From assembly GCA_036874045.1 (NCBI GenBank), contig CM072335.1, positions 12,606,001-12,670,000 of the forward strand: DNA of 64,000 bases, read 5' to 3'. Of this stretch, positions 25,491 through 61,500 are shown in pieces. A model generated the notes under the pieces. That model was not told the origin of the DNA, did no database searches, and saw only the letters and a program-made list of their open reading frames with translations. Each line of letters opens with the position of its first letter. Position 1 is the first letter of the stretch. The DNA is from Cymodocea nodosa (taxonomy: Eukaryota; Streptophyta; Magnoliopsida; Alismatales; Cymodoceaceae). A program made the translations under genes and the position numbers.

Positions 25491-25589
25491 ATTGATACCT
25501 CCTCTAGGAGGGTAGCTAAATGAAACATCATAACTGAAGTAACTATGTATAATATAGTAAGTAGAAAAATATAAAAAAAAAATATAAGT

Positions 25590-34434: not shown

Positions 34435-34539
34435 ATGGAAACCCTAATGGTGGATTGCGTGCAGAGTAGCCTACGCCTCTTCATGCACCGCAACGCCATC
34501 TTCCTCTGCGAGCGCCTCTGCGCCGAGTTCCCTACCGAG
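34435..34539 (+). CDS. CDC27B: CDC27B exon 1
   Basis: 35 codons from METLMVDCVQ to AEFPTE, GC-rich. Donor GAG|GTCTGC; intron 1 is 354 bp. The start is fixed by homology of the first residues and by the strong GCCATGG context. Confidence 0.88.
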
Positions 34540-37500
34540 GTCTGCTGTTTTCTCTAGTTTCTGACTGATGATCCGATGAAAATGGGGACGGTGTGGGAAT
34601 TTGGTTTGTGGTGGATTGACTTGTTGTGACTCTGTTGGTGCGATAATTGCTTTTTTTGTCAGAGGTCACCTTCAAGTTTTCGATAGATTTTAGGATCTGG
34701 TAACGTGGAAGTGCTGGAGCGGTGAAGAACGGTGTTTTTCCAGCTTGTTTTTCCTTTGTCAGGATGTACTTTTGGTGCATTCCTTTATAATAGTGTTTGT
34801 TTGCTATGTTCTGGTTGCTAATTTAGTTGCTGCGTACGCAGAGCTTAGCTTTGTACTTTTATTATATGAAATTTGACTTTTTCCTTTTTGCAGCTGAACT
34901 TGCAATTGCTCGCGACTTGTTACCTGCGAAATAACCAAGCTTATTCTGCTTACCAGCTTTTGAAAGGTATTTGCTACGTCTAACAGATGCCCGTTTTGTG
35001 TTGATATTATACACTCGTTAGAAACATATAAATGCGGTTGATTGATGAAGCGATTGTTAAAGTTTTATCCTTCCTCCCAAAACATTCCTATTGTTACATT
35101 TCAGACCACAGTTCAACACAAAGTAAGTAAGCTACATACATGTAAGATCTACAATAATTAATCAACCATTTCAATTTTGAATGACTCAGTTAAGATAGGC
35201 ATTTCTGAGGTCTGGTTGTTATTATATAAAAATACTCTTTATTTTTTTATCACAATTTCTCAATGTATTTTATAATCCCAATGATCTCATCACATGACTC
35301 ACTTTTACCTACTGATTTATTTATGAAGGTACACAAATGGCTCAGTCACGCTATTTGTTTGCATTATCATGCTTTCAAATGAATCTCCTTCGTGAAGCAG
35401 AAACAGCATTATGTCCAGCCAATGAGTCAAATGCGGAAGTAATTATTTTCCATAATTGCAAATTTCTGACACAGTAATATAGTACTAGTTCATTGGAGTT
35501 AACACATTCATATACTGGAACCCCTTTAGCTTTCTTTTCTTGGTACTTCACTCATGTTAAAATGGAAACTTTTACTGAGTAAATTGTTATGCATCTTTTC
35601 AAGCTCTTGCTTCTATCCAGAATTGCCACTTTAAACAACCTTGAACATTCTCTTCATCAGAAAACATCGTTAGCATTAGGCATTGCATGGATTTGTGGTT
35701 TGTCTTGTAGACACAATCTTGTTGATGCCCTACACAATTGATGGCTGGCATCATTAGTTTGTAAGTGTTTTTTTGTTCTTGTAAGCCTTTTTCTTCCTAT
35801 TGTTGATGTCACGTTTCTTCTGGTTCAAGGTCATTTTGATAGTTCAATCTCCTTTGGAAGTTATAAATTTTCTAGTACATGCATGGTTGATGGCTCTGGT
35901 ATCTGATTTTATGGAGAATTGGAGATGCTTTTATGAACTTGGCAAAACATCTGTGCTCTGAAGGTCTGAGATCTGATTAGATTGAAGCTTCATAAGAACA
36001 TTTCCTTTGCACTCCCCAGTGATCAAAAGACCATACATCTAAGGGTGGTTGAAGGCATCAAGACAAAGTAAGAGAGGAGAATCATCACATGCTATTGGTC
36101 TAAGAAAGAGTGCTCTTTTTATGGTTTACCGTACAGAGGTTGCATTGCAACTCACTGAAGCTACGAGATGGAGATCTGTTTCTTTGTATATTATCCCTTT
36201 TGAGTTTGCTCATTGAACTTTTTTTGGATGTTAAAAAATGGCTATCAATCATATCCCTTTTTGAAATGATCAAAGCTGATGGTTAGAGTCGAATAAGTTG
36301 TAATTTGTGTATGAAAACATTTTCTCTTAATGGGCTACATTTGAGCAATTTGTTGGATACTGAAGGTTGAGTATTTTACCTGATAACCGAAAATAGGGCT
36401 AAACCTCATAAGACAGTCAATAATGCTGAATATCTTAATTCTGGTTCTCAAATTCATCTTTGTGCTTCTAGTTCAAATCTAAGTAGCTGATGGTAAGCAT
36501 ATTGAAAACTTAAAATGACTTTTATATTGAATACTTAAAATCACTTGCATTAACCATCCTCCTTTGTTAACACAATGATCATTTTATATTCGAATCAAGT
36601 CACTATGTATTGTTGAGCTCTCATTTTACTTCATGTCCAGGCTTCTTATAACTTGAATTTAACTTTTATTCTGCAGATTCCAAATGGTGCAGCTGGTCAT
36701 TATCTTCTTGGTCTCATTTATAGGTAACTGAATTTCATATTTCTTCATATATAAGCTGCATTTATAATTAGAAAAATGTTCCAACAACTTCATTGTTCAT
36801 TTCTCCGTGAAACATAGTTGAAGCTTGATTTTTTCCCACTTATCATAAATTAAATTAATGTATGGTAGCTATTATTTGTAATTTTTTTCTGTAAGCTGGT
36901 CAAATCAAACTACAAGTAGTGGGATTGATCTTGGAGTTGAATGAAGAAGTTACTTGAATCAGGAGCTTACACTTACAATAATGCAATGCTAGGTAGAACT
37001 AGAGGAATGTTCTGTTGTAGGTTTTGGTTCCCATTAAATTAATAAATAGTTAGACTTTGTTATTGTATTTTATTTGACACCATGAATGAGGGTATTTGTA
37101 ATTGCTTTCTAAATTTCAGTATTATGTGTTTTGTTGATTCATTCTTGCAACTTGGATGTCATGATTATGGGTTGGATGCCTAGTTGTCTGGGTGACAATT
37201 ATAATTACTTGGTAGAAGAGGGTCTATATGGTAGTCATCCTACTTGGCGAAGGGATGGGAAAGGGCTTTGTCATGGAGGTAGTATTTCATTTTACTATAA
37301 ACCTTCTTTAGGGTCTTATGTTTTTGTTTGTTTACCTTCTCTGTGTTTAAATCTGTAAATGGATGTTTAGAATCTGATTCAAATTCATCATCTAATTAGA
37401 TATTTAGATGCCTGACATAAATTATATTTATTATTTTATTTATAAATTTACTATTTTATCATTATAATTTTATTTGTATTTTTATTTTTTTAATATGAAA

Positions 37501-40500
37501 TAATCATACTTGAATCTGGATGACTTGATTCAAATATTCCATTAGGGTTAAGATTTTTTTGAATAAAATATAATTCATTAATGTGAAATAGATATTTTGA
37601 AAAGTTGATTTCCAAATTCAGATTTTTGGATTTAGATATTTTGGAGTTTCCCTAGATTTGGATAGTATTGTAATTCTGATTTTCAAATTTGGATATCTAG
37701 ATTGAGTTTTCTTAGGTTTGGATATTATTTGAATTTAGCTAAATCCAAAAGGTATAGATTTAGATATTTAAATATTTATCTGAATATTTTGAATAGATTT
37801 GAAGATTAAATGGATATGTATTTACATATAGGTTGTGATTAGAGTGAAAAAATTGTGTAATAATCCATTAATAGTAAGAGATTACTTATAAATATCTAAG
37901 AATTCAAATGGATCCTAAACAAAACCAACTACATTCTACACTACCTCTCAACCTAAAGAGTATATATTTATCATACTTATCTTGTCATAGATTGACTTAA
38001 AGACACATTGACTTAACCCTTTAGTGAGAACATCAATGAGTTACTTTGAAGATGGGGTATAAGGTATGGAGATTATTTCCTTCCTCACCAAATTTCAAAC
38101 ATAATGGTAGTTCTATCTCTATATACTTAGTACATTTGTGGAATATTTGATTGTTTGCAAAATGCATGACTACTTGATTATCATGGTACATGAGCAATAA
38201 ATCCTAAATTGGCATCCTAAACTCTTGCATGAGACATCTGAGCCACATCATTGCACAGGTAGTTTGTGCCATTGACCTATACCCTACTTTAACATTAAAG
38301 ATTGAAACCACATTTTGTTTCTTACTATGCCATGTGACTAGATTTTCTCTTACATAGGTATAATAGTCAAAAGTAAACTTTCTATTCTCTTTATCACTTC
38401 CATGATCAGAATTTGAATAAGCTTCTATCTTTAGGTGTCCATTAGCCTTGTAAAGGAGAGCTTTACCTAGTATGCCTTTAATATAATGAAGTACTCATTT
38501 TGTGCTTATCCAATGCATCTTTTTTGGTTTATATATAAATTGACTTAATAGACTTACAAAATAGGCAATGCTAAATTTTGTAATAGTAAAATATACCAAT
38601 TTTTCAATTAATCTCATGTATTGATTAATATTATCCAATTTCTTAGATGAATCATCCTAAAACAATAGATTTGGCTTTATGGGAGAAGGTTTGATTTTGC
38701 ACCCAAGACATCTTATTTCATCTAATAATAAATTCATAGGATACTTTCATTGAGATAACACCATTTTCCCTTTTGAGTATGCAAACTCAATTATTAAGAA
38801 GTTGTTTGGTTTGCCCATGTCTTTAGTAATAAAGAATCTTGGAATATAGTTCTTGATCTTTATAGTTGGATTAGTTGGGAAAAAAGCAAGATTAACTTCC
38901 TTGATTAGGTTTATGGGGATTACATATATCTTGAACATATAAATGGATATCTATTTATCATGAAATGGATCCTACAATATAAACTAACACTCTCCTTTAA
39001 GCTAGAGCATATATATCAAATAACTTTAGCTTGTTACAAAGAAGTTCAAAGACCCTTACTCCAAAACCTTTGGTAAGAATGTTAGCAAGTTGATTCTTAG
39101 ATCGAGTGTATGGTGTAGATATAATTCCCTCTAGTACGTTGTCCCTAATGAAGTGGCAATTAACCTCCACATACTTAGTCCTTTCATGACATGTTGGATT
39201 CTTGGTTATGTAATAGCTACTTGATTGTCACAACATAATGAGATAGGTGTAGTAACTTCAACACCGTTCTCATGAAGTAAAGTTTTTAACCATATCAACT
39301 CAAAAGTGACATTTAACATAGCACAATATTCAACCTCTACTCTTGAGACTACATTTTTCTTTTTACTTCACCATGTAACAAGATTTCCACCAAGATAAGT
39401 TAAATACTTGGAGGTGGATTTTCTATCCACCCTGTCACTAGTGTATTTAGCATCTAGAAATCCTTCAATCTTCAAATGTTTATATTTGACATAAAGAAGA
39501 CCTTTCTCAGGAGCTTTCTTGAGATACACAAGAATCTGAAGAGTTCCTTGCTAATATACCTCTCTAGGTGCATGCATAAACTAGTTGAGCAAATTGACTA
39601 TATAGGAGACATTTGATTTGGTAGCAGTTAAATATATAAGCTTGCCTATAAGCTTCTTATATCTCTTAGTCTCTTTAAACAACAAAGAATCTTTATCCCA
39701 GAAAGAGTGACTCTATTCTATTGGAGTATCAGTAGATTTGCACTCCTTAAGATTGGTTTCCTTTAGTAGGTCTAGGACATTTCTTTTGGAATAATGACAA
39801 GCATCCTTTGGAAAAGACAAACTCAATGCCAAAGGAAATACTTTGGAGTTCCTATATCTTTTGTAGTAAAATTCTTACACAGAAAACGTTTGGTTTCCTC
39901 AATAGCTTGACTATTGTCTCTAGTGAGCAATATATCATCGACATAAACTACAAGTATAACAACTCTTCATGAAGTATGTTAGACAAAGACTAAGTGATCG
40001 ACTTTACAACTATTAAAGTCACTACTGTACATGACATTGCTGAAATTTTCAAACTAGGCCTTAGAGTTTTGTTTTAGATAGTCTTGTGAAGCATGTTGAC
40101 TTGAGACTTCCCCTAAGTAACATAGCTTGACAGTTGTTTTATAAAAACTTGTTCATCTAAATCACCATATAGGAACACATTTTTGACGTTTAGTTGAGTC
40201 AATTGCCAAGAATTGTTGATAGTCATAGATAAAATCATTTGTATTGAATAAAGATGGGCAATAAGAGAGAAAATCTCAAAGTAGTCAATCCTATACTCTC
40301 GTGAAAAACCATGAGCAACCAAATGAGTTTTATATTTGTCAATACTTCTATTAGGTTTTCTCTTGACGGTGTAGACCTATCTACAAGAAACTTTGTTCAC
40401 TCCTTCGAGTTAAAAAACAAAATCTCATGTGTCGCGTGAGAGAAAAGCACTCATTTTCTCACCCATGACAATTTTCCAATGAGGCATTTGAAGAGCTTCC

Positions 40501-43500
40501 TTGTAATTTTTAGGTAGAGATTCTATGGAAATGGCTAAGGTATAGGTATGGAAAGTAGAATTAAGGTTATCATAGGAAACAAAAGAGGCTATGGGATGTT
40601 GGGTACATGACTTAGAAGAACAATAGGAAGATCATTAGGGATAACTTGGGTGGACTCATTGTTCAAGTTAGAGGTTGGCATGGGTGTAGTCGAGGAGGTC
40701 GTGGTTAAAAACTATATACTTGTAGTGGTGTATAATTATTTGCATCAATAGTGTTTATGGAACTTGTGGTAGGTAGAGTTAGGAGAGGAGAAAGTTCAAC
40801 TAGATTAGGAGTAGGAATGGAGGACATGTTGGTAGAAGAAATAAGAATGAAGTCAGAAGCATTATTAAAATATGATTGACTCTCAATAAAGGAGACATCC
40901 ATGGAGGTGTAAGATTTGCAAGTAAGAGGATGATATAACTGATATCCTTTTTTAGTACATGAGTATTTGACAAATATACACTTGATTGCTCGAAGAGATA
41001 GCTTGTCAAGGTTAAAAGAAAGATTTTGAACAAAGGTAACACATCTAAAAACTTTTGAAGGAATACGAAACAACTCTTGATTAGGATAAAGGTGATGAAG
41101 AAGTATTACCTTCTCAAAGATAAGGAAGACATCTTATTAATGAGATATGTAGCAATAAGAAGAGCATCAGATTAGATATATTTAGGAACCCAAGCATGTA
41201 TCATAAGGGCATGTGTGATATCAAAAAGGTGGCGATATTTCGTCTTTGCAATCCTATTTTGTTGAGAGATGCGAGAACAAATGGTTTGATGTAAGATGCC
41301 AAAGGAAGCATAAATGGATTGAAACTTAGCTTGCACAAATTCAAGAGCGTTATTAGTACGTAATATTTTTGGACATAGAAAATTGATTTTGTATTTCAGT
41401 AAATTTTTTTTTGAATACATCTAGGACACTATGGTGGTCCTTTAATAAGTAAACTTAAGACACTAGAGATTAATCATCAACAAAAACTACATAATACTTG
41501 TGATTATTAATAGACATTGTACGACTAGGATCTTTTACAATGAACTAAATCAAATATATGTATAGACGAAATAAGATGTAAATGCTTGAAGGAAGCACGA
41601 GTATGCTTCCCAAGTTGACATGACTTACAACTAAGAGGGAAAAGAGAGACCCAAGGAATAGCTTGATGAAAATTCTTAATGGATGGATGACCTAAATGGT
41701 AATGCCACAGAATAAAGGAATTAGTGCTTGACGTGCACACAACTAGACCATAAGGTTTATAGTCACAAACCAAAATATATGCTCTTGAAGATGACAACCT
41801 ATGACCCAAACTAATCCTCCCTGTTGACAAGTCTTGAAAAATGTAAAGGAAAAAAGGTTACTGAACAAGATAATTGAATAGTAATAGTACTCATGGATAA
41901 AAGATTAAGAAAAAAAAGGGTATATATAAGGCATTGTTCAACCACATCTGAGATGAGACCTGAATCTCCTCCTAACTAGATATAAGATATGAACGATCAT
42001 CGACAATGGTGATAGAGGATGAATTAGGTAAGGAGGATAAGTGATTGAATAAAGTAGATGTAATTGTCATATGGGAGAAGGCTCTATAGTTGATGATTTA
42101 AGGATCATCACTGGAAGCAACCAACCATGACAACATTAAAAGTGATACTTGTAGAGGCATGAACACTCATGGTAGTAGGATTCTGTCCTTGGGATAATAA
42201 GAGGCAATTATAGTTTTCTTGTAGGATGGTGCATTGCATTAACATCAACCTTGGTATTGACATGAGCAATTTGAGGTTTTAAATGAGGAAACTTGTTTCA
42301 GCACTTCTTGAATTTGTGTTTCAAATTGCCACACCATTGATATTTGAGATGTTATCGGTCTTCATGCTTGGTACTCCCTTAGTCATGACAATAGTTAGTT
42401 GAACTAAGGCAAATTGTTCTCCATTGACACTTGGGAGTATAGAACTAGATTGAGTAGAGATGCATATAACCTTTGCAAAAGTCTCGTCAATGTTTGACAT
42501 GCAATTTGCTCTAAGGACTTGCTTACGAATTTGGAAGGCAATTTCTAGATTGATGCCAACAAGGTAAGTTGTAACATCTAGTTCATCATGATGGCGCTAA
42601 AAGTAGTAATGTTGGTGGTTGGAGGTTGATAAGTGTTCAACTCATCAATTAGTCTTCTCAGAATACTGTATTGCTCCTAACACATTTTGTCTTCTTGTTT
42701 TAGTTGAAAAATTTGTTCATACACTTGAATGGTTTTGGAAATATTCTTCTTATAGCCCACATCTTCTCAATGGGTCGCATCATGAATACCTCATGAGCCA
42801 TAATAGGTTCCATATTAGTGAGCATCCATGATACTATGATAGTATCATTAGTGAGCCACTTATCATAACCTGGAGTATTTTCATTTGACAGTGATTTTGT
42901 CAAATGGTGCAATTAATAGTGGATAATAACAATTGTTTCAAAGTTTTAAGCCTAAAGAATGTAGTTGGTGCCATTGAGTTTCTCCATTAAATTAGTGAAA
43001 CTACAAATAAGAAGATCATGTTGTGATGGTGTAGTGGAGTTCAAAGACATGGTGGAATTGGAGTCTGTTGAAGCCATGATATATATATATATATTTTAAA
43101 TACTTCTATAATACTTTGAGACAGACTACCTTGGTATGGAGTTGTGATCAGGTGAACAGAGTCTAAAGCTGGAAAGTGATTTTCACTTGTCCTGCTTGCA
43201 AGAAAGAAAAGGGAGAAAACTTAGTTGAGTGATGATGGTTGGAGAAGGTAATGCTACTTGACAACAAAGTAGTGGATGAATAGATGGAAGAGCCAAAAGC
43301 CTTAGGTGGAAGATTGGGAACAAGATTGTTAGGGGAACTTCAGTTGTGGACGAACAAAAGAGGGAGTTGGAAGCTTTGTACAGGATGAAGAAGTCAGATA
43401 GGACTATCAACGATGATCTCAACTAAAAGTTTGGATGCAATTGCATTTTCTTTATTGACATTGACATTGATAGCACAAACGATGTTGACGTAGGAAGATG

Positions 43501-46500
43501 GAGTGATCGGGCATGTGCAAACAAACGTGATGGAGAGCGACAACTCGCTGGCTATCCATGTGGGAGATCAACAAAGTCTTGATTGCGAGTGCTTGATGAA
43601 GGAGGACAATGGAGGAAGTCAACAAGGGATCGGTGGAGGATTAGTTGCTCTAATACCAAGTTGGATTAGTTGGGAAAAAAAAAGATTAACTTCTTTAATT
43701 AGATTTTTGAGGATTACATATATCTTGAACATATAAATGGATATCCATTTATCATTAAATGGATCCTACAATATAAAGTAACATTTATAATTTTTATTAC
43801 ATTACTACTAGTAAGAAGGATATCAACATAAATTGCTAGTATTACACATCCAATGGTCATTTTCTTCAAGAAATTAAAGTGATCCATAACACATTGTTGG
43901 AAATCTCCATCGATCATGACCTAGCTAAATTTGTTGAACCATGCCTTTAGACTTTATTTAAAATCATAGATAGTTTTCTTTAATCTATATATTATATTCT
44001 CCTCTTGAACAATATACCTAAGAGATTGCTACATCTAAACCTATTTAGTTAAATCATTATAAAGAAAGACATTTTTGACATTAAAATGGTGGAGTTCTCA
44101 TTGACAATTGATTGCAATAAATAAAAGAACATGAATAGAATTAAGACTAACAATTGTTGAGAATGTCTTTGTATAATTAATCTCATAAGTTTGAGTAAAA
44201 CTATGAGTTACAAGCCAAACTTTATATCTATCAAGAGACTTATTTGACTTATATTTAATGGTAAAGACCCATTTAGAAGAAACTATGTTTGTTTCAATAG
44301 GACAATACACCAATTCCTACATACCATGAAATTACAAAGTCACTACTTCTTCATCCATAATTGCCTTTCAACATGGTAGTTGTAAAGTCTTTAGATAATT
44401 CTACAGTATAGATTAAGGGGGGTTTGTACATGATGGAAAGTGAGGAAAAGGAAAATGATGGAAAGTGGATGAAAAATTTCTTGCGTTTGTGCATATTGTA
44501 TAAAAGCTATGACTTTCTATTGAAAGTTTTTACTACCATCACACTTTCCATATGTAGAGCATTTGAAGGTCGATCTTTGCTCCCTTCAAAACCTAACTTT
44601 TGCTCCCCTTGAAGTTGAGACCTCCGCTCTATCTTCGCATCCCTCATGTCATCTATCCCCATCCATCACTCAAGCTCAAGCATGTATTTTGTTCACCGCT
44701 CACACATGTCATTTGCTCATTGCACACCACCATAGCCGACTTCCCTTATTTCAAGACTGTCACTATCTGCTTGACATCACCCATTGCAAACTTGATGCAA
44801 ATCATTTAGAGTTCTCAGTTGCATCAAGCTCATCAAACCATTTCTTGTCAGTATGGAGCTTCCCCTACGCAAAACATGATTCTTCTTCTTTAGCTCCTAC
44901 CAACGAACTCAAGCGATCAATGACTATTGTTTCACCACCCACACTTGTGACAATGCTGTTCTCCCTTTGCTAAAGCTTCTTCGACCTTCGGCTGATGTCA
45001 CATGCCTATCCTACATTGCTGCCGCCACTCCTCTATAAGTATTGAAGCCCCTTTTGCCATGCTCCGCTAAAATAGGGGACAGACGCCATTAGTCCTTCCC
45101 TTGTGTGCTTATTTTTACTTCATAATCTCATTTTGGTTGAAGATGTAAATATTGCATATGATACCTTAATCTTATTTTAATAGAACTAATTCTTTTAATT
45201 TTATTTAATATCATTAAATTCAATATCATTAAGGTTAATACTAATTTTGTAATATATAATTATAAATTTTTAATAATGTATTTTATTATTAATTTATATT
45301 GAGTATATAAAAATATATTGAGTATATAAAAAAATAAAAAAATAAATTTAAAAAATCAGTTTAAATTAGTTATTTATTTATTATTTATGAATTATCAAAT
45401 TATTCAATGTAATAATTTGTTATTTTTTACTTATCAAATAATATATTTGATGATGTTTTTATAAGTGATATTTTTATTTATGTGGGAAGAACACAATGTG
45501 TGATGTATTATCATAAGAATGTAAATATTATTAACTTATGAATTTTTTCATAAACTTGTTAAAAGTGTAAATATTTTTATATTATTCAATTCATATTCTA
45601 TTACATTCTGTTATTTTCTAGACTATACATAAATGCTTATATTTTCTATTGACTTTCCGTTACTTTTTGCAACTTTCATTTTCATCACTTTTTACAACTT
45701 TTCGATACTTTCTTTTTGTTACTTTCTAGGTACATAAACAAACCCTAAAAGAAAATGATTAAAGTAAGATTATGATAAGAGGGGCTAAAATGATCATATG
45801 AGAAATATGGTGACAAGTACAGGTTTATGTACCTTTTTGTAAGGCAATTGGTAGGTCCTCTATAGGGTTTGATTCTAAACTTACATTAGGAGATGTGAGA
45901 GGTTTTGTTGGTAGAAGTAATAATGGTGTATGCCAATGTCATTGATACACTTGTAGTAGACAAGTGGTAACATTGTTATCTCTATTAGGATTGTCGTTGT
46001 TTTTAAAATTGGCATTCCTTTGAGATTGGTTGTTTAAAGGGATAGGAATTGATAAGGAGACACTATCAAGAGTCTCAAGATCCTCAATAAAATAAAATTG
46101 CCATTTAAAAAAAAAAGGTAACATCGACAAAGACATAATATTTCCTTATAGAAGAATAATAACACCTATATCCCTTCTAGGTCTAACAATATTCGAAAAA
46201 GACACATTTTAGTATCAAGGTGAGAACTTATCAAGGCTAAGACAAAGATCTTGGATAAAAGTGACACAACCAAATACATGAGGAGTTAAAGAGAAAAGCT
46301 TCGTTTCAATAGGTAAATGATGAAGGGGAATTTTGCTACCAAGAGGCATAGATGGCATACAATTTATATAAATATGAAAGGTTAACAATACTTTTCATAT
46401 GATGAGAGATCTCTAAGTTTATAATCCAAGGATTATCATCCTTTGCTACTGTGGACATATCTATATTTGAAGTGAAAACTACATGTAACAATGGTTGAGG

Positions 46501-49500
46501 AATTGGTAGTTTGTAACTACATGATCTACTTAAGAGATTGTCATCTTAGTTAAGTTTTTAGGAATTGTTGATGTAGATGAATTGGTAGGCTTGGTGGTAA
46601 CTTGGGCTCATGTAGATCGCCTAAACTTCTCTCAACAACATTCTAACCTAATCTTGTGGATCTAATCTACTAAACTTACTCTCTCCAATGTATGCCTTAC
46701 GAAGCCAACTAGCTCGTAGACTTGCTTGCCAAGACTAACATTAATAGAGGTCAAAGATACATATTTAACAATGCTAGTGAATTTCTGGTTAAACCTCATT
46801 AAGGCTGGTAGCTAGGCGAATTGGGTGTCCCCAGTAGTAAGAGATGTTAATTGGATGTTTTCTCTTGCATGTTCCTAAAAATTCTTCCTCCCTTTTATTT
46901 TGCTCTATTGAGCTTCCCCCTGTTTGTAAAATCTTTTGATTGGTGCCCCCACCCTTTAAATAGATTGAGGTTTTATCCCAAAAAAAGAGGAATACAATGC
47001 TTACCATTAGATTGTTCACCTTTGGTATTGCAACCTCTAGGTGGTTATACTACAGCCATGGTGGCTATAGACTCAATCTGAGTACTAGTTGTGGATATCC
47101 TGAGAACACACACAAATGTAGTTGCAAGATTAGGAGTAATATCTCCACCAAGCATCTATTAGGATCTATTAATTTCACTAAAGAGAGGTGAACAGTGAAA
47201 TTTAATTATTTAAAAAATGTTTCAATAAAAATCAATTGATTAAACACTTTATATAAAAAATGCTTAATGAAAAAATGATAATTAATGTAAAATACAATCA
47301 CAAATAATAAAATGAAGTATATAAGAATATAAAAGATTTTTATAGTGGTTCCTTAAACCGAATTTGTCTACTCTACAAACCCCCAAACTTGTGTCTTTCA
47401 TTAAATCTAGTATTTTTATAGATTCATCACTCAAATTTTACATCCAATATTTTTTTGAATTCAATGTTTAACCCTTACAGGTGTTTATGGTTGTATACCT
47501 CAACCAACCATAGGTATTTATAGTCAAAAACCTCAACCAACCGTGTTATTTTCAGGTTTAACACCATGCTCAAGTGCTTGTGGTTGAATACCTCAATTAA
47601 TCATACTATTTTCTGGTGAACACCAAATCTTTCTTGGTACAATCCTACCAAGTGTAATTTCACTTCTTACGTCAAAGAGTTTTACCTTAAATTCAAGGTG
47701 TCTACACCAGTTTTAGCGTGTTTCTCACCACAAAATAGTAAAATAGACTTTTATAATAAGAATTAGAAGTACAAAGGAATTTGAAGTTCAAACATAATAA
47801 AACAAATTGCAATAATGTTTTTCAACTTCCTATCATGTAACCTTGATTGAACCTTCATAGAATTGAAACTTTTCAACACTTTTGAACATACTTAATGTAG
47901 ATCTTGAATGCAGCAATAAGTGCTCTTCAATTTCAACCTTGATTAATCTTCTATTAGCGTTGGGATGTCTCAAAAAGTGTTGATTGAATGCTCTAAACAA
48001 TGTTAAAGTGAAAATACATAGAGGTGTCACTTCTTACAATGTGAGATCTCTTGTATATATAAGGTAAAACTTAGGGGTTCAAAAAGCTGGAAAGTGAATC
48101 TGTTAGAATCTCTATCAAATTGGTATGTTGTTTTTTTGATTAATATGCTGTTATTTGAATTTTTGTCTAACTGTATCCCAAATCGGTATAGGTATGTTAA
48201 GTTCAGATTTTCCATTTTATATTTACCATTTACAAATTAGTATGTCATTCCATATATCAGTATGTCATTTTGAAAACTTCTGCACAACTATCATCCAATT
48301 AGCATTTATGGATAGTTTCAATCTTTCGTTTTTTAGGTTCTGTTTAACTTGCTACAAAAAATGATATTCTTGATAGAAGCATTGGTATGCCGTTTGTTCC
48401 TTTTTGACATTCTCAAGAACAAATGATGTGTTATCCCTTTATATTGATCTTCCATTTACAAGAACTTGTATCACCTGTTCTAGGAAATGGTATGTCGATA
48501 GCATGTTATCAATATGTTGTTTACTCATCTTGGGTTGCAGATGATCAAACAGGGTCTTGCTATTTGGTAATGGCATATCATTTTCTTGTTTAAAAACTTC
48601 AACTGATCATTGTTCATCACAAAATGGTATATCGTTGGACTTAACAATATATCAAATATTGGTCTAGTAACTTTGCTTGATTACTGCTCATCTACAAATA
48701 GTATTTTGTTTATGAAAATGACAAACCAAAATATTGTTTTAGTAACTAAGATAAGTTCGTATTTAACCAAGAATAGTATGTCAGCATAAGATATATTCTA
48801 AGTCTCTATTTAATACATAACTTATATCTAAATACATCATTAATTTTTTTTTATCAAAATCTCATAAAAAAGATTTTCCTAACAATCTCTTTTTTATTAT
48901 GATGACAAAATTTGATGACATGTAACTCTCTCTCTCACTTTAAACTTTAAAATTACAGCACATTATATTAACATAAGACAACATACATCATTATTTACCT
49001 CTCCCCTTTTCTGTCATAATCAAAAAGAAAATTAAGATTTTCAGTTTCTACCTCTTTCAATATGATAAGACTCTTTTTTACCTTTAGGAAGCTTCCCTTG
49101 CAATTATGCTATGAATTCATATTTGCTTCAAAAATTCTTCTTGCACAGTAAGATACCAATTGTTATTTCTAATTGTTGATTGCGATATATACCAATTTCT
49201 ATATGCACATCAATTTATCAATTAAACCATCATAATTGGAAAATTTTAAATTCCTTTTGTCTCTCTCTTTTTCAATCAGCAAAATTAATGACATATTCAG
49301 TAAATATCAAAAGAAAATATGCTCCCCCTACCATGAGAAAGATTTTCAAAAGATTCATTTTAAAATGGAAAATCAAATAGACCAGACATGTAAGCAAAAC
49401 AAACAATCAGAAAAATAATTGGCATATTCAGTAAATATCAAAAGAAAATATGCTCCCCCTACAATGAGAAAGATTTTCAAAAGATCCATTTTAAAGCAGA

Positions 49501-52500
49501 AAATCAAATAGACTAGACATGTAAGCAAAACAAATATAATCTCAACAAACTAAATTCAGAAGAAATAAAAACCAGATGAAAGAAAAACACACGGTAGAAT
49601 TAAAATTAAATCCAAAAGAAAATAACTAGTAATATTGTTGTCATTGTCTATCATCTTTTAACTAGGAGGGAGACTGTTAAGATACCTCAAGTTTATGCTT
49701 TTAGGTTTACCTCAAAACAGGTTTTCTCTCTCTGTTTAGTGATGAAGATTAGATTCTATCTTTTATATTATCTTTTTTAGAATATGGTTTACATACACCT
49801 TGTGTCTATGAAAATAATCCAAAACAAGGGCTTTCAAGTACACATTTGGTATTATTTTTTAAAAAAAATTTCCAACCCTTTGAGAAAACTAAATCTTTAT
49901 ATTCTTAGGCTTTCTTAATTACTTATGTAACAAGTTTTAGGTTAATGATTCTCAATTCAGTTGACTCTAAGACACTAGGTATTAAGACACTCTTATGATT
50001 AAGGTGTATTTACACCTACTATTAAACACCTACTTTTGTAAGAACTTTGGAGTTAACTGTGTTTGGGTGGGAGCAGAACCAGGATGGGTGACTATTTAGG
50101 AAGTTCTCGTGTAATGTCTATAGGTAGTAGTGTTGGCTTTGCTCAAATGTTGGTAAGTTATAAGTGTGTGCATCACTTACCTAATTCACGTGTCAACATT
50201 GCAGACTTTGCCTTAGTCAGTAATCTCAATCGAGTTGGTAAATAAGGCCACTTAGGATATCTCCAACTAGTTGAGAATCTTTACGAGATAAAGTACACGA
50301 TACTCGGAGAAATCTACCATGTTGGGGCCTAACAAGGCCTCCTACAATAAAAAAAAAGACACTCTTATGACTTAATTACTTAAGCAATTAGGGCTACAAT
50401 CACAGGAATTTATTTCTCCCCTCTTATTATTCTAAGTTTTAGACCTTTAATCACCTTTTTATGTGAATATCTAATCCTTTCTGAGGCATGATTACCTAAT
50501 TACTTGGTGGTTGTAAGATTTTAGGTTCAAAATAATTTATTCATTACTTTTAGGACAATCCAGGTGTGTTACTTGAGTAAACATTTCTATTTTTTATTAT
50601 GTTTTAAAAACTAAAATACTATAGGTACTCTCTACTTTCCTTAATCAAGAATTAACGTGTAAGTGCAAATAAGGTATATATGAACTAAATAATAATTTAG
50701 ATAATGTTATCCTTTAGAATTCATTTCACTCTAGGGTTTTGAAAGATAATCCTATTATTGGATTCACCTTAGAACTTCAACTAAGGGTCACTCATCTATC
50801 CCTAACTAGTTAAATCTATTAATGACAACTAACATATATTTTTACTTTAAAATATAAGTAAAAACATTTCAAACATTAAAAGGAATAAATAAACCCCCCT
50901 CCCCCAAAATAAGCAGTGTTTTAAAATAATTTTAACTTATATAAACTTATGTTGAAAATAATCCAGAAAACAATTTAGAAAAAATTAGGTCCGTTTTATC
51001 TAAACGGTATACGGAAAATCAAATTTCAGTAAATCTATATACTAAAAACAGCAAGCCAGTTTATATGTCAGTATGTTGGAAACCAGTTTTTTAAAAATTC
51101 TGTACTGAAAATGGTATTTCAATTTTCAGATCTGTATGTCGATTCTGACAGATCAATAAAAATTGTAACAAAACTAATGAAAATAAATAATTTGATTTAC
51201 CAAGAAATTTTAATATGCAGATCAATAACAAATAAATGCAGTAAAACAAAAACATATTCATAGAATATTTGCTGGGAATTATAATAGATTTTCAAATTAA
51301 TTCAATAAAGATTTAAGAACCAATTTCATCTTGGAATGAGTTTTAAAACATGACACAAATGAACTTTTAGTTACCTAAACATATGATTTAGATTTTTTAA
51401 CAATAAAGACATCTTTTCCATCAAGATAATTTTTATTCAATTTATTTTCATACGGAACATAAGATTTCATCATCAGGATAAGACGTGCATGTGACTCGCA
51501 ATGATGCAGTGTTTAAGAAGGATTCAGTTGTGTGTAGTTTTACCCTTTATAATAAATGGAGATGCTGTTCTAAGATTCAGACCTTTATCCTGCCAATCAT
51601 AATGGAATGACCTTACTATTATGCTAAGGTTCCTCTAATTTAGGAAATAAAAGGTAAAATCTAACTCTTTATAAAAATAAATGTGATGAGATTTTAATAG
51701 GTTTCTTTTTTTTGGAAAAAGGTCTAAGCATAAGCATAAGTTCATAAGGTATTTTAGAAAACAAAAAGGCAAAATTAAGTTTTTTTTTTAACAAGAATAG
51801 TATGGATAAAATAATAGAGATTTCGCTTAAGTGCTTGTTGGATGACATGAAACATTTGCTGCATCCCTTTTATACGTGGTGCTTTTTCCCTTTCTATTTT
51901 GGTTGATCATAGCCTTCTTTTTCCATTTTTATCTCCAGATACACTGATAGAAGGGCCAATGCAGTTCATCACTTCATGCAAGCATTGGAAATAGATCCGC
52001 TTCTATGGTCTGCATATGAGGAGTTATGTATACTTGGTTAGTGACAGTACTAAAAGAATCTTAATATTTGTTTACTGGTTACTTGGTTGTGGTACCTTGT
52101 ACATTGTCTTTAATTGAACTAGTCTTTATGACATACTCTACAATTAAACTCATTGATTTTTCAGGTGCTGCAGATGAAACACATGAATACTTTAATGATT
52201 CAGCTTCTCATCGTATAATGTTGCAGCATCAATTTGAGCACATTTCTCAAAACCTGCAGTGTGTCAGTGGTGACTGTAATGCAGCAGCTACAAAGATATT
52301 ATCATCTTCAGTGGATTTTAGTCCAAGGCAATCAAAACAATTGCATCCTAATAATCTTAAAGAGAACCCTTGTCATCCTCATGCAGTGCACCCAATCAAT
52401 TGCAGCAGTCATTCTAATATGTCATTATACAATACTCCTTCGCCTACTCATATGCAGGTGAGTTAATTATTAGTGGGTGACAAGGTAATCATATGATTTC

Positions 52501-55500
52501 TATGCAAGGGCATGTTTCATTCTTGAACATTTGGTTGATAATTGAACTCTCTCTTCACACACACACATACATACACATGTACACACATGCACATGGATGT
52601 GCATACATGCATGTATACAAACACATGCACACAAACACACACACATGCATGATAGGAGAAAGAAAAGGATTATCTATTTCTCATGAGAGTATGTATATAT
52701 AGCATATTGGATATGTAATGAACATCCAATTACCCTATCACAACTATGACCTCATTAAGCTATATAATAATAACCCCAACACTTTCCCACAAATTATCAT
52801 TCCTAACTTGGTACATAAATTCTTAAATACTCTTATACTTCATCCTTTGGTGATATTATAAGGCATAAGCTAAAAAACAATTTTATCAGGAAACAAGAGA
52901 AAATTAGCTTAAGCAGTTTGATTTCTACATAATACACCAATTCAATGGAGCAACTTGCTGATATTTTTATCAAAGGATTGGGTATTAATGCTTTTTAATC
53001 TTTATGTAACAAGTTGAGAATGATATATATTTATACACCAACTTGAGGGGAAAGTGATCTATGTATATACTTGTGTAAGTGGGTAAATGGATATCCTTTC
53101 ATCTAGAATCCATTCCCACATATATATTGTATTCCTTGCACTAATCTATGTCAATATTTGGCTCAACAGCTTGAGCCAATGTTGGTTGGTAGTGGTGAGG
53201 GTGGTGGACAAGATTTTTGGGTGGGGAATGTGTGGTGGTTGCCGTTGAGCCTTAGGTTTTTTCCTTGGCTCTAGTACCATGTGAAAGGGGAAGAAAAAAT
53301 TATCTATTATGAGAGAGTACATATGTCTGCATAGGTTGTTGGATATGTAATGGATATTCAATTACCCCATTGTAATTACGACCTCATTAAGCTTATCTAT
53401 ATATATGTATAGAGTGAGAGAGAATTAATCTAAGTTACCTCCAGAAGTATCAAATAAGTTGCTACTTCTAATTTATTTACAATACTAAAGGTTTCAAATC
53501 AAAAATCCAAACCAAGGGATTAAATTTATAACATAAAAAGCATATGCAAACAAAATTTCAAGTGAATCAGAGGTATCTATCATGTTCATCCAAAAGTGTG
53601 TATTTTAGAATGTTTTCAACACTTAATTTTGTAGTCATCTAATTAATAACATATAGTTATCAAAACTAATTGAAATTTAATTTATAGATATGATAAAGAC
53701 TAAAGAATATTGATCAATTTCAATGGTTTGAATCTTGATTTGTAACCTCTAATATTGAAAATAAATTGGAGTACCATCCCATTTGGTACTTCTTAAAGTA
53801 GCCTAGACTAACTATATATATATGTATATAAATGTAATCACAAGATAATTACATATAATTATATATATCTTTGTATACTTCTAGCTCTATTATTTCTTAA
53901 ATAACATTGAAATACATAAATAATCACAAGATAACTTCAAAATATGAAATATAAAATCCAAAGTATAAAATGTAGCACACATGATCTAAATATGTTCCAA
54001 ACAAGTTTGATATCGAAAGTTTTTACTTTACATGTGATAATAAGATTAAAAGTAATGTAATGGTTTCGAACATATAAAATATAATTATGAACTTTTCAGT
54101 AGTGTTTTTCAAAAATGGTAATTTATATTTTGGTAATACACTAATATGTATATTTTAGTAATATATATGATTATATATTTCAATAATTGTGTATATTTTA
54201 GTAGCATTCCATCAAAAAAGATGTATATTATTATGTTTTTCTCAGGGAAAAAAGCCTTTAAAAAACCCACCTACATCATGGATACTTTCTTGATCAATTA
54301 CCAGATCTGACAAGGATCCAGTCAGAACCCAAGACATGAAGCATGCGAAGGTCAATTCACTTCTAGGCATCTATGCACCTTAATAAGTATGCTGTATGGT
54401 GCATACACTATAGTCGCTACTAAACATGAAATGTACACTTGTATGATTTATATACATCATAGAACAAGGAATCAGAAGATTACCTTATTTATAAAACTCA
54501 CAAGATTACAAACTCGAAAGATCTTTAGCAATAATGAGAGATATATGATAATGAAGAAAAGAGGGGTCTACACAAGACATATGCCTAGCCATAAATAGGA
54601 CCAAGTCTCCCATCCACAAATTAAAATACAGAAATACTTTAGAGAAAACATAAATAAAGATGAGAACGATGTGCTAGCTATGTGGGAACACTAAGAGACT
54701 AGCCAAATCCATGCAATCAATTTGTTGCTTTTGATCATGTTGTCAAGAGAAGTGTTTAATCCTACCTGTTAGTGTTATATAGATCCATCTCTTGTATATA
54801 AATACCTGCATTTACCTTAATGAAATTAATCCCTTTTTTCCCTTACGTTTCTAACATGGTATTAGAGCACTGATTCCCCCGTGGAGGTTGCCAGCCCCCC
54901 CCCGTGGAAGCTCTCTCCCCTGTCGTGGACAGAAACGTGCGCGCTCCCCCTGGTGCCGCTTGCCCCCTGTCGTGGATAGACACGCGTGCCTGGACCCGTC
55001 TATGTGTTGTTGTCTGGAGGCCATCAAATGGACCCTGCTTGGTTCAATCAACCGTCACTTAAGGTGGTGATGTGATAGGCTACCGACAAATTGGTGGTTG
55101 TGCAGACGGTGGCTGCTGAATCCACTGAAGTTGCTGGAGGCAATTGTTCCAGTTCGTTGAATCTTGCTTGATTCTTGGAGTTTTTGGTTGTGATGGCTTT
55201 TCGAAATTCTTTGATCTAACCTATTGCTGGACCCTCTATGAAGCTCAATGATTTGAACTATCATAGTTGGTCTTTAAGTTTTCTCACCTTTATGGCAGCA
55301 CAAAGGAAAAGCAGCACTTGACTCAACCTCCTATTGATATCAAGGATCCCAGGTATGATGATTGGTTTGCTGATGATGCTATGGTGATTACTTGGCTAGA
55401 AAACAGTATGGAACCTATTATGGCTAAGGGAGTGATGATACTCCGACCGGCCAAACTCATTTGGGACACATTGAAGCAGATGTATGCAGAAGAGCGAAAT

Positions 55501-58500
55501 ATTTTAAAATTTTATGATGTGTATGAACAGATTTTCAACTTGAAAATGGGTAATCAGTTGGTTCAAGAATACTATAGGACTATTCGGTCTCTATTTGAGG
55601 AACTGAATGTGTTATAGTCTCCTACCACTGATTTGGTTACATTATAGAGATATAGGAATGACTTGCAGGTGGCTGCTTTCTTATCTGGTTTGCCTTAGGA
55701 GTTAGTGTCCTAGGTGTGTGGACATTTATTGGGAGGAGACACTACACCTGATTTGGGAACTGCATTTGCACGAGTCCTGCGTATCTCCAAGGCTGGAAAC
55801 ATGACAACTCCTATAGGTCAGGACAGTTCAGCGTTGGTTGTTAGAAGGGTTCAAGTGAGACAGAGTGTCCAGTAGTTTCTTATGACTACAGGAAGATGCA
55901 GGGTTTCTTGTACTCATTGTGAGAAGACCAATCACAAACCTGAAAAATGTTGGGAAAAGTTTGGTAAGCCTACTTGGGCGAGGAATGTGATTGATGTGCA
56001 TGATACTCCTAGTGGAGGAGGAGGCAACTCTGGGGAAGCGATAATGGTTATTTTTCAGCAGAAGCATGAGAGGTTGAAGCAGACTCAAGACTCTAGTTCT
56101 TCAACAGTTGCATCATTGGCTTCCACTTCTAGCATGACTGTGCGTACTAACGAGATACAACATTAGATTGTCGATTTAGGTGCATCTCAGCACATGACAA
56201 GTTGTCCACTCTTTTCTCACCTCAGGAAAATGTCCACCTTACAGAGTGTTATTGTGATTGATGGTTGCTCATGCCCTATATTTGGAAGCGGCACAGTTGA
56301 TGTCACTTCAGATATATGGCTTAAGAATATCTTATTTGTTCTCGATCTTTTTGTTAACCTATTATCTATTAGTGCTATAACTGTTCAGCTATCCTGTTTT
56401 GTGGCATTCTTTCCTTTTCATTGTACCTTTCAGGATCTGCGAACGAGGAGGAGAATTGGTTTGGGTCATAGGCGGGGCATTGGGGAGTATGTTCTCGGTT
56501 GTGATACACCTTCTAGTGGCCTTACAGTCTCACTGTCTTCTGCCACCGTCTCCTCTCTTATGGCATAGGCATCTTGGTCACCCGTCTATTTACAAGCTTC
56601 GTCAGGCGCTACCATGGATAGACGTTTCTGAGTTTGTCTGTGAGTCGTTTGAGTTGGGCAAACATAGTCGATCCCTCTCTCCTCATGTGTCGCTCACCAA
56701 GAGTCAGGTTATGTTTGATCTGGTTCACTGTAATGTGTGGGGTCCTAGTTGTGCTACCTCTTCTAATGGGTACTAGTATTATCTTATGCTAGTTGATGAG
56801 TTTTCCAGAGTTTGTTGGGTGTATCTGCTAAAAGATAGAAAAAATATTGTGGTTTTTGTTGAAAATTTTGTGAATGAAATTAATATCCAGTTCTCTATTA
56901 TCTTAAAGTGTCTTAGAACTGATAACACTCTTGAGTTTGTGAGTACTTAGTTTCAACACCTTTGTACTTTTCGTGGGATTATTCATCAAACGACATGTCC
57001 TCACACCTCTCGGTAGAATGGGGTGGCGGAGAGAAAACACTGTCATTTGTTGGATATTACTAGAACTTTTCTTCTTCACATGAGTGTTCCGAAATCCTTT
57101 TGGGCGGATGTTATTCTCACTACTGCTTACTTAGTGAATAGGATGCTATCTTCCCTCCTCGGAGGGGAGATTCCTTTACATCGCCTTTATCTTGAGTGTG
57201 AACTTTTCTCTCTCACCCTTAGGATGTTCGGGTGTACGACTTTTGTTCAAGATCTAAGACTTGGTCTTGATAAACTTGATGCAAGAGTTCTTAAATGTGT
57301 CTTTGTGGGATATTCCAGAACTCAAAAAAGGTATAGGTGTTTTCACCCTCCTACAAGAAGTTATTACACCTCCTTTAATGTCTCCTTTTTTGAGGACCAA
57401 CCTTATTTTATGTAAAGAATTGATACTTTCGTTGATCAGTCCTCCCTCAAGGTTCTAGGTCCTTATTCTACTCTTTGTGAGTTTGATGAGCTTGTGATTC
57501 CTACTATACCTAAGTCTCCTAGTGAGGGTGCCCAAAATGAAGAGAGTGAAGTAAGGCCACTGTAGGTGTATTAAAGGAGGTAACGAACTCAAGTTCAACC
57601 TATGGCTCCACCAAGCACTTCTTTAACTGTAGATTCTCCCACTACTGTTGATGATTTACCTATTGCCCTCTAGAAAGGCACACGCTCATGTACATAGCAT
57701 CCCATTTCTCAATTTGTTTCCTATGAGCATCTAACCTCTTCTTGTCGAACCTTTGCCTTGTCCATCATGTTTGAGAATGTTCCTAGGACATACTAGGAAG
57801 CTTTGTAATGCCCTGCTTAGAAGCAGGTCATGGATCAGGAGATGAAAGTCTTGTGGTCTCGTGGCATTTAGAAACTAGTTTCTCAGCCTGTTGATGCCAA
57901 CTTAGTTTCTTGCAAGTGGGTCTTCACTATGAAGTTTAGACTAGATGGGAAGGTAGAAAGATATAAGGCTCGGCTTGTTGTTAGAGGATTTACTCAGGAG
58001 TATGGGGTAGACTATGCAGAAACCTTTTCTCCTGTGGCTCGGTTGAACTCAATCAGGGTATTATTGTCAGTGGCGATCAACCAAGGGTGGGAACTTCACC
58101 AATTGGATGTAAAAAATGCTTTTATATACGGCGATTTAGTTGAGGAAGTATACATGACCCAACCTCCTAAGTATATTTCACAAGGTAAACATGTGGTTTG
58201 TAAATTAAAGAAGACAATTTATGGCCTTAAGCAAAGTCCACGTGCCTGGTTTGAGAAGTTGAGCAGTGTCCTTTTCTCTAGCGGCTTTAGAAGGTGCACA
58301 GTGGATCATTCGGTATTTATTTGCAGGTCTGACAGGGGGTATACCATTCTTGTTATATATGTTGATGACATCCTTCTTACTGGAGATGATTGTGTAGGGA
58401 TCAAGAGGACCAAGGACCACCTGGCCAAAGTCTTCGAAATCAAGGACTGGGGCGACCTGGATACTTTCTAGGTGTGGAGTTTACGTACTCCAAAGACAAG

Positions 58501-61500
58501 ATGGTTATCTCAACGAAAGTATGCTTTAGATTTGTTGGTAGAAACTAGCACCTTGGGGTGCAAACCTACATCTACTCCAATTAAACAAAATCTCTCCTTT
58601 TAGGACACGTCTACTAAGGAATTTTCTGATCCCAACAGGTATAGATGCCTTGTTGGGAAACTAATTTATCTTACTGTTACTAGGTCAGACATTACATACA
58701 TTGTGGGGTTGCTTAGCTAGTTTGCATCAGCCTAGAGTTGTGCATTGGGAAGGAGTTGAAAGAATTTTAGCATATATCAAAGGAACTCTAGGAAAATGAT
58801 TGGTGTATCAGAAACAATGCCATCTAGAAGTTGAAACCTTCTCTAATGCTGACTTTGCAGGTAACAAGGGCGACAGGAAGTCCACCTCAGGTTACTTAAC
58901 ATATATAGGAGGAAACTTGGTAACTTGGCGCAACAAGAAACAAAGTGTCATATCTTACTCTAGTGCAGAAGCTGAGTACAGGGCAATGAGACTTACAGAG
59001 TGTGAAATAGTTTGGCTTAGATCATTGTTGAATGAGCTTGGGGTAATGGTCAAAGTACTAATGGCGATATACTGCGATAATCAGGCTGCAATTTACATAG
59101 CCAAGAATGAGACCTTTCATGAGCGTACCAAGCACATTGAAGTCGATTACCACTACATTAGAAATCTAGTCACTAAAGGCATTATTCGTACTCCTTACAT
59201 TTCATTCAGTGAAGAACAAGCTGACATCTTGACCAAGGCTTTAAGTTGTAGGTCCTTTAACTCAATGTATGGCAAGCTAGAATTAGTTGATATATACTCT
59301 CCAGCTTGAGGAGGAGTGTTAGTGTTTTATGGATCCTTATATGGATCCATCTCTTGTATATAAATACCTACATCTACCTTAATGAAATTAATCCCTTTTT
59401 TCCCTTACATTTCTAACACTACCCATTAGAGTTTTACTAAGAACCATGAATCTTCACTTCAATGGGGTGGAATCTAGGTTGTAACGTGAGGGTGAAGCAT
59501 TCAAATGTTTGAAGAGGCAGCATATTGTTTTCTCTGTGTAGGATCGAATGATTACACAAGAGGGAGGTGAATTGTGTTTTTCAATAATTTCGATTATAAT
59601 TGAAACTTCAAAAATAAAAACAAGTCGATACATTATTTTGATTAAATCATTTTATTCAAGGTTTCAATTACAATATATAATTCAATTCTTCTTTGAAATT
59701 GTAGATGCTATTATATAACGATATCATGTTTCATCTAATCAATTTTATAACTACAAATAGAGAAAATTAATTTACAGAATTTAAAATATTTCTCCCTATT
59801 CGAGATTTTTTTTTTCTTCTGCAATTCTTCAGTGACAAATATCTGACTTTCTCTGCTTCATCGAATTTGTTTTCTTCTGATACTTCATATCTTCAGTGAC
59901 ATAAATCTGACTTTTTCTGCTTTACTGAATTTTTTTTCATCTAAGAGCTTTTTCCTAAAGAGGTGTTTTTGATCTTTGAAAATATATTTCGTTTGGTGTG
60001 TAGGGATAATTGATCAATAAGAATTCTATACCTTTTATACTATATATTCACTTCATGCATATCCTCCACGTTTAATCACTATCAGTTTTCCACTCTTCAC
60101 GTCTTCTCTTTTTCTTTCATTGAAATACACACATTCTGACTTATGTTTTCTTTTCAATTTTTTTTTAATCATCAATCCTAGATTTCTAAAAAATTTTCTG
60201 CAAAATAAACTTTTTTGTCCAAAATTTTTCATTAAATATAATAAGAAGTCGTGTTAATGTTAACTAAACGAGTAATATAAGTAGATTTATAACTTAACGT
60301 ATCTAACTCAACGAGTTTATCATGTGTCAAATCATGTGACAAGTATTGTAGTTAACTTAACGAACTAAGTTCGTAGTGTTACGTTAACTCAACAAACTAA
60401 GTTCGTGGTGTTACGTTAACTTAACGAACTAACTTCGTGCATATCCTCCACGTTTAATCACTATCAGTTTTCCACTTTTCACGTCTTCTCTTTTTCTTTC
60501 ATTGAAATACACACATTCTGACTTATGTTTTCTTTTCAATTTTTTTTTAATCATCAATCCTAGATTTCTAAAAAATTTTCTGCAAAATAAACTTTTTTGT
60601 CCAAAATTTTTCATTAAATATAATAAGAAGTCGTGTTAATGTTAACTAAACGAGTAATATAAGTAGATTTATAACTTAACGTATCTAACTCAACGAGTTT
60701 ATCATGTGTCAAATCATGTGACAAGTACTGTATCAAACTAAGTTCGTGGTGTTACGTTAACTTAACGAACTAACTTCGTGATATTATGCTAATTTAACGA
60801 ACCAGCTTTATTTTGTTACAGATAACTCAATGAATCAGTAATAAACAAATATTTTTATAATAAAAATTTTACCACATGCAATAATAACAACTTTAAGTTT
60901 ATAATGTTAACCTAACGTATTGCCTTAATGCTCAATATAGCAATTCAACGCGTGTAGTTAGTATAATAATATTAACTTAATGAGTTAAACATGTGCAATT
61001 CATGTGATACAATATAACATTTGTAAACTTTAATTTCACCATATGTACAATACTAACTTAACGAGTTTGTTTCTTCATTTTGCTCTTTTACTTACTAACT
61101 TGAGTTCTCATGTGACCGATTTTAACCTTTAAGTCTATAACTCAATGAGTTCTCACGCGACGTATACAAATAACACATTAAGTCAATGAGTTGTCTAAAC
61201 GTGTACTGTTCATGATACAGAAAATATAACTTTAAAACATATCATGCTTTGCAATAAAAATATATGTTAACGTTTAGTTAAATGAAAAGTTAGTACAACG
61301 TAACGATTAGTTATTTAACTTAGTATAATTTTAGATCTATTACAGACAAATATTTATATCAGTAAACTTTTTCTATATTAATTGATGTTTTTAATTTACG
61401 TTCACAAACAATAATAATTGAGAAAATATGATTATATCCGTTTATCACATATCATCAAAACAAAATACTCAACACTCTAGATGCTTAAATATCGAAAAAT

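Follow-up and report, generated by a model that had tools for sequence, protein, structure and literature searches.

Retroposons whose 5' heads derive from 5S rRNA are described under the name SINE3, with named members that include the zebrafish SINE3, the lepidopteran HaSE3, PxSE4 and PxSE5, SINE3-1_TC of Tribolium, and SINE3-1_AO and AfuSINE3 of Aspergillus (PMC8010984, PMC5063351, PMC7245038; here and below, sources are cited for the portions of their text that were available). The Plutella elements PxSE4 and PxSE5 are given as 389 bp long with a promoter region about 63% identical to 5S (PMC8010984), AfuSINE3 as 259-343 bp long with 50-65% identity to 5S (PMC5063351), and the group as a whole is reported from various vertebrates and some insects, with partners of the CR1, I and RTE clades (PMC7245038). 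A first-pass annotation of the locus considered here had described such elements as known from animals, a statement that holds for vertebrates and insects but not for animals alone, since fungi carry them too (PMC5063351).

The picture in plants is a different one. Our literature search returned SINE3 for vertebrates, insects and fungi and none for plants among the matches listed from sources outside subscription journals and Repbase; a maize survey for 5S-derived SINEs by their A, IE and C boxes came up empty, the four maize SINE families being tRNA-like (PMC2774510), and two plant SINE annotation papers mention 5S, in their available text, in general statements or the reference list only (PMC8825457, PMC11490119). 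As far as found, a 5S-headed SINE type is apparently undescribed in plants. Maize SINEs lie mostly in genes, introns or UTRs accounting for 1174 of 1991 (PMC2774510), and ZmSINE2 and ZmSINE3 have a 3' hairpin in common with an L1 lineage, the CGAG flank and UCU loop of this grass L1/SINE hairpin being conserved (PMC3747384). Plant retroelements with 5S sequence are represented by Cassandra, whose organization comprises LTRs, a Met primer site and a PPT, with the 5S part placed within the LTR at 25-75% of its length (PMC10853983); one speculation traces it to a SINE3 that had landed in an LTR (PMC10886601), while capture from 5S rDNA arrays is favoured elsewhere (PMC10853983).

Here we describe a locus in a 64-kb stretch of Cymodocea nodosa DNA (64,000 nucleotides, hereafter the window) at which a 5S-headed RNA was almost certainly inserted by LINE machinery. 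We are inclined to regard it as a copy of a dispersed plant SINE family with a 5S-derived head (SINE3 type), known here from one copy.

Results

An inserted element within a CDC27B intron

The features of the locus are as follows (window coordinates).
About 34435-34542, 34897-34968, 35331-35441, 36680-36723, 51939-52038, 52164-52463, 62093-62239 and from 63467: exons of CDC27B/HOBBIT (APC3)
36724-51938, plus strand: CDC27B/HOBBIT intron of about 15.2 kb, its boundaries placed by eye at GT and AG, with the element in sense
49984-49998, no strand: 5' copy of the target-site duplication, TATT directly upstream, nick context TT/AAGA
49999-50357, plus strand: SINE-like element in full, reaching from the 5' duplication to the last A of the A-run, whose final two A's also belong to the 3' duplication
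50002-50121, plus strand: 5S rRNA-derived head, positions 1-120, gap-free
50051-50065, plus strand: box A equivalent (5S positions 50-64), 12/15 identical
50068-50073, plus strand: intermediate element equivalent (5S 67-72), 4/6 identical
50081-50098, plus strand: box C equivalent (5S 80-97), 13/18 identical to Citrus
50122-50348, plus strand: tail of other origin, 227 bp
50320-50346, plus strand: stem-loop, two bases upstream of the A-run
50349-50357, plus strand: A9 end
50356-50370, no strand: 3' copy of the target-site duplication

CDC27B exons flank the element on both sides, which bears out its earlier placement in a plant intron. Solved-structure and Pfam searches with one CDC27 exon yielded no match to CDC27; the gene was identified by comparison with a homologue and then by a protein database search covering proteins up to about 650 aa. 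Among the 80 proteins listed, Musa CDC27B comes closest to the joined product (63%, query coverage 100%), and the next monocot is the orchid Platanthera (63%, coverage 88%); eudicots rank between the two at 56-58%, and some eudicot matches attain 64-71% with coverage of about half. This ranking places the host among the flowering plants, and probably among the non-grass monocots.

The gene (34435-63757) spans at least 29 kb, and its introns of about 15 and 10 kb hold retrotransposon pieces, among them Copia-type polyprotein pieces at 55267-59309 in a downstream intron, on the gene's strand (plus), with RVT_2 at 57872-58471 and the rest assigned by eye. A 131-bp unit is tandemly duplicated (92% identical) at 49273-49534, within the intron that holds the element and some 450 bp upstream of it. 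Elsewhere in the window, two related gag-like retrotransposon frames lie on the plus strand at 15312-16436 and 24196-25523, the first matching Retrotrans_gag and the second alike by eye, and a weak match, below the curated cut-off, to the LRR domain of R13L1-type disease-resistance proteins at 31637-31987 (plus) is probably a resistance-gene fragment.

Ends and target-site duplication

The word AAGACACTCTTATGA occurs just twice in the window, at 49984-49998 and 50356-50370, as a perfect 15-bp duplication (15/15 identical) whose 3' copy follows directly on the nine-A run at 50349-50357 and has two bases in common with it; the A9 end flanked by a perfect duplication on both sides, noted at first pass, is thus exactly as it had been read. 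By eye, TTAA follows the 5' copy and CTTAA the 3' copy, so that the duplication is possibly 19-20 bp long with one indel (one lost C), in which case the element would start almost exactly at 5S position 1. The element begins TTAAGGTG and finishes CTACAAT(A)9. The nick context TT/AAGA departs at a single base from TT/AAAA, which PMC13174262 quotes as the L1 motif. Head and tail have a G+C content of 39-41% as against 26-28% in the 1-kb flanks, computed for boundaries shifted leftward by one base relative to the final coordinates.

We scored as a signature any run of seven or more A's with a 15-mer of ordinary complexity that recurs 100-600 bp upstream; it appeared in none of 4570 simulated windows (in two of 4570 once the complexity filter was lifted), nor in a smaller control of 10 windows, plus strand only. 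The real window holds one other such signature, on the minus strand at about 60141-60542, which was rejected as a SINE: it is part of a tandem repeat array without an Rfam match. This array, at 60050-60808, consists of a unit of about 380 bp in tandem, with 78-86% similar sequence near 18.1-18.5 kb and 20.4-20.8 kb and shorter pieces elsewhere. A further 12-bp repeat after an A-run is present in the real window (38888 and 43682).

These ends bear directly on the alternative that the locus is a decayed solo LTR, of Cassandra or of another LTR element, with a long duplication and an A-run that came about by chance. Solo LTRs of Cassandra end in TG...CA and its target duplication is 5 bp, against 15 bp here; duplications of 5 bp are likewise given, in the available text, for plant Helenus and for Ajax. 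LTR-type ends and a 5-bp duplication are among the features that the first-pass annotation had named as speaking against a SINE, and neither is present at this copy, where the duplication signature, absent from every filtered simulation, brackets the head to within 3 bp. The fact that the only well-known 5S-bearing retroelement of plants is an LTR element (in line with PMC10886601) lends the solo-LTR explanation some appeal, and yet 5S similarity at the terminus is a position seen in 0 of 81 Cassandras (PMC10853983), so that we consider this explanation very improbable.

The 5S-derived head

The gap-free alignment of 50002-50121 with a Citrus 5S reference, assembled from three published probes (PMC13342924), has 74 of 120 positions identical, and the Rfam 5S_rRNA model aligned over its full length (1-120) at 50002-50120 on the plus strand with 33.2 bits and E 4.7e-5 (551 bases searched), a score below the curated cut-off of 38 bits, at which a scan of the whole window returned nothing. 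The best ungapped 5S match elsewhere in the window, on either strand, reached 49/120, and the best over 3982 windows simulated by an order-2 Markov model 60/120. Positions 1-49, which precede the promoter boxes, agree in register at 25 of 49 sites (0 of 20000 shuffles; 19 in the best of 30 slid registers), and positions 98-120 at 14 of 23 (0 of 20000 shuffles); on these comparisons, the 5S similarity extends beyond the promoter core.

The equivalents of boxes A, IE and C were placed by what we take to be their numbering in 5S. That of box C contains the canonical word AGGATGGGTG (PMC10853983), and AGGATGGGTGAC is exact at 50081-50092; the full-length 5S-like head from about 50002 with its box C word, as proposed from the letters alone, is hence upheld. 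Identity to 5S is 29/39 in the promoter boxes and 45/81 in the rest of the head (P 0.07), or 30/39 and 46/81 (P 0.043) if a match to either reference is counted, which is only suggestive of the boxes having been kept somewhat better than the remainder.

A working 5S gene was rejected as an identity for the head, given the score below the Rfam cut-off and a 5S helix I that is largely lost. The sole T4 run of the element, TTTT at 50034-50037, could stop or weaken Pol III transcription, so that this copy may be dead. Derivation of the head from 5S over its whole length is also what would be expected of an ordinary 5S rRNA pseudogene or dispersed 5S repeat that is not composite; the duplication and the A-run, however, enclose 227 bp beyond the 5S part, and we give this explanation hardly any credence.

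Divergence of the head in relation to the insertion

With agreement to either of two references counted as identity, 44 of the 120 head sites still depart from 5S, and C>T or G>A changes account for all but 20 of these. Had the 20 accumulated after insertion, about five differences would be expected between the two copies of the duplication (Poisson P about 0.007), and counting all classes of change an undiverged duplication has P about 2e-5. A head diverged by 37-38% beside a perfect 15-bp duplication implies that the source had itself drifted from 5S beforehand, as would be the case in a SINE lineage, and most of the divergence thus predates this insertion, with the ascertainment bias that a decayed duplication is less likely to be noticed.

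This timing argues against a fresh 5S chimera and weighs upon the main rival, namely a one-off chimeric or readthrough retropseudogene: a single LINE insertion of either a 5S-like RNA fused by template switching or ligation to a second, polyadenylated RNA (a LINE 3' end or an mRNA) or the readthrough transcript of a 5S pseudogene. Such events have a precedent in the mammalian 5S/LINE-1 chimeras, 27 of which are catalogued, 20 with duplications of 7-17 bp (PMC13174262), the relaxed RNA recognition of the L1 machinery is said to extend to plants (PMC7245038), and the single copy known here fits an isolated event. The 5S part of the mammalian chimeras is, however, typically antisense and truncated (PMC13174262), whereas here it is sense and full length, and had real 5S rRNA gone into a chimera, its 5S part would have started out near-identical to 5S. 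The divergence is nonetheless compatible with the transcript of a 5S pseudogene that had already decayed, and it is in this form that the retropseudogene, unlikely as we hold it to be, deserves to be weighed ahead of the retroposed Cassandra RNA discussed below.

The tail and its 3' stem-loop

The tail had been described as some 230 bp of other origin, and the 227 bp delimited here agree with that description: no Rfam family matches above chance (no match better than E 0.76), and ARAGORN found no tRNA in the window. A tRNA-headed SINE was accordingly rejected, the head being 5S. Two reading frames, one running through both head and tail and the other a reverse frame of the tail, had no protein homologue among 5.8 billion proteins. 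The 27-nt tail segment 50137-50163 has partial matches at 23967-23993 (minus) and 18913-18936 (plus), of 24-27 bp and 83-85% (E 0.005 and 0.22), which we judged to be chance.

The RNA fold of the complete element is unremarkable (z -1.06). For the final 40 nt of the tail the predicted fold has -13.2 kcal/mol; none of 300 letter shuffles was as stable, as against 17 of 1000 dinucleotide shuffles and 1 of 498 40-mers from the flanks. For 3' segments of 40, 60, 80 and 110 nt, letter shuffles did as well in 0 of 300, 0.7%, 1.7% and 0 of 300 cases, and under the stricter dinucleotide control the counts were 17, 33, 31 and 4 per 1000, which makes the predicted 3' stem-loop moderately unusual. The CGAG flank and UCU loop of the grass L1/SINE hairpin are absent from it.

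The tail also speaks to the possibility that a Cassandra RNA, transcribed by Pol III from the LTR 5S and polyadenylated, was inserted by a LINE and not by LTR machinery. A search of the tail with what we take to be the sequence of the initiator-Met primer-binding site yielded 8/13 at best, a value that 71% of 2000 shuffles reach (mean 7.9), so that no such site is seen. Cassandra is widespread in plants, its RNA reportedly begins within the 5' LTR, in the 5S part (PMC10886601), and the length could be similar; its 5S core, on the other hand, measures about 70 bp, and more than 100 in some species (PMC10853983), whereas the similarity here spans positions 1-120. On balance, we consider a retroposed Cassandra RNA improbable.

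Searches for further copies and for a partner LINE

Within the window, blastn of the element returned itself and short matches only, without a second copy, and in plasmids and phages it returned nothing. Exact 22- and 24-nt words of the tail had no occurrence in viral_contigs or genome_contigs, nor did a degenerate pattern designed to fit plant 5S, Cassandra and the present head. A reverse transcriptase motif scan of the window registered three LTR-type YVDD sites and two others, and found no LINE with this 3' end in the window.

Discussion

The anatomy of the locus (head, ends, duplication signature and divergence) supports a LINE-mobilised, 5S-headed, SINE-like retroposon, and to this extent the SINE3-type reading offered at first pass stands; membership in a dispersed family is the part that we hold with less assurance. 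It is favoured by the full-length, gapless sense head that starts 3 bp inside the duplication, and the element resembles known SINE3 in length (about 350 bp) as well as in head identity (62%). A single copy in the 64-kb window and a stem-loop without the letters of the grass hairpin count against it.

The sequence of events that we envisage for a SINE3-type copy starts with a source element bearing an internal 5S promoter (boxes A, IE and C), which Pol III would have transcribed from 5S position 1, the position that lies at the edge of the present element. The resulting RNA, whose tail would have ended in a stem-loop and poly(A), may have been recognised by the reverse transcriptase of an L1-type LINE, a partner suggested by the A-tail in conjunction with TT/AAGA. 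The LINE would then have nicked the intron at TT/AAGA and copied the RNA from its A-tail by target-primed reverse transcription, leaving the 15-bp duplication. In this scheme the A-tail, the duplication, the nick context and the position within the intron are read directly from the DNA, as are the 5S head and its start at the element edge; the 3' stem-loop is moderately supported as a participant, and Pol III transcription, an L1 partner and further copies in the genome would follow from the scheme.

If a SINE3 does exist in plants, it would be a candidate intermediate for the origin of Cassandra, a proposal that is testable by comparing the 5S parts of both, and it would mean that the LINEs of plants are not restricted to tRNA-derived Pol III heads. 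The most far-reaching version, in which 5S-headed SINEs mobilised by L1-type LINEs form a lineage in monocots, the first plant SINE3 and a living relative of the postulated Cassandra ancestor, is a conjecture that we put forward with considerable doubt.

Comparison with known systems

Several described systems share individual features with the locus. With the mammalian 5S/LINE-1 chimeras it has in common 5S joined to other sequence, the duplications and the L1 nick motif, the orientation and completeness of the 5S part being the points at which the two diverge (PMC13174262). The tRNA-headed, A-tailed SINEs of plants, such as ZmSINE3 of maize and the Brassicaceae SINEs, likewise end in poly(A), and differ in that their head is tRNA-like with A and B boxes whereas the present one is 5S. 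Cassandra, a TRIM LTR retrotransposon, is the likeness within plants with respect to a 5S Pol III promoter carried by a retroelement, but neither its LTR ends nor its Met primer site nor its internal 5S position recur in this element: in the available text, the 5S part of Cassandra is never at the LTR terminus, whereas here only 3 bp separate 5S position 1 from the duplication.

The closest correspondence is with SINE3, whose described members combine a 5S-derived head with A, IE and C boxes, a 5S part about 60% identical to 5S, an unrelated body and tail, and a length of a few hundred bp. The sense 5S-derived 5' head is present at this locus, and so are ends of the LINE type, which comprise an A-tail or simple tail with a duplication of 7-20 bp and are here A9 and 15 bp. 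The two part ways in host and partner, the named SINE3 hosts being animals and fungi with partners of the CR1, I and RTE clades, whereas the host here is a plant, in which the A-tail and TT/AAGA suggest a partner of the L1 type.
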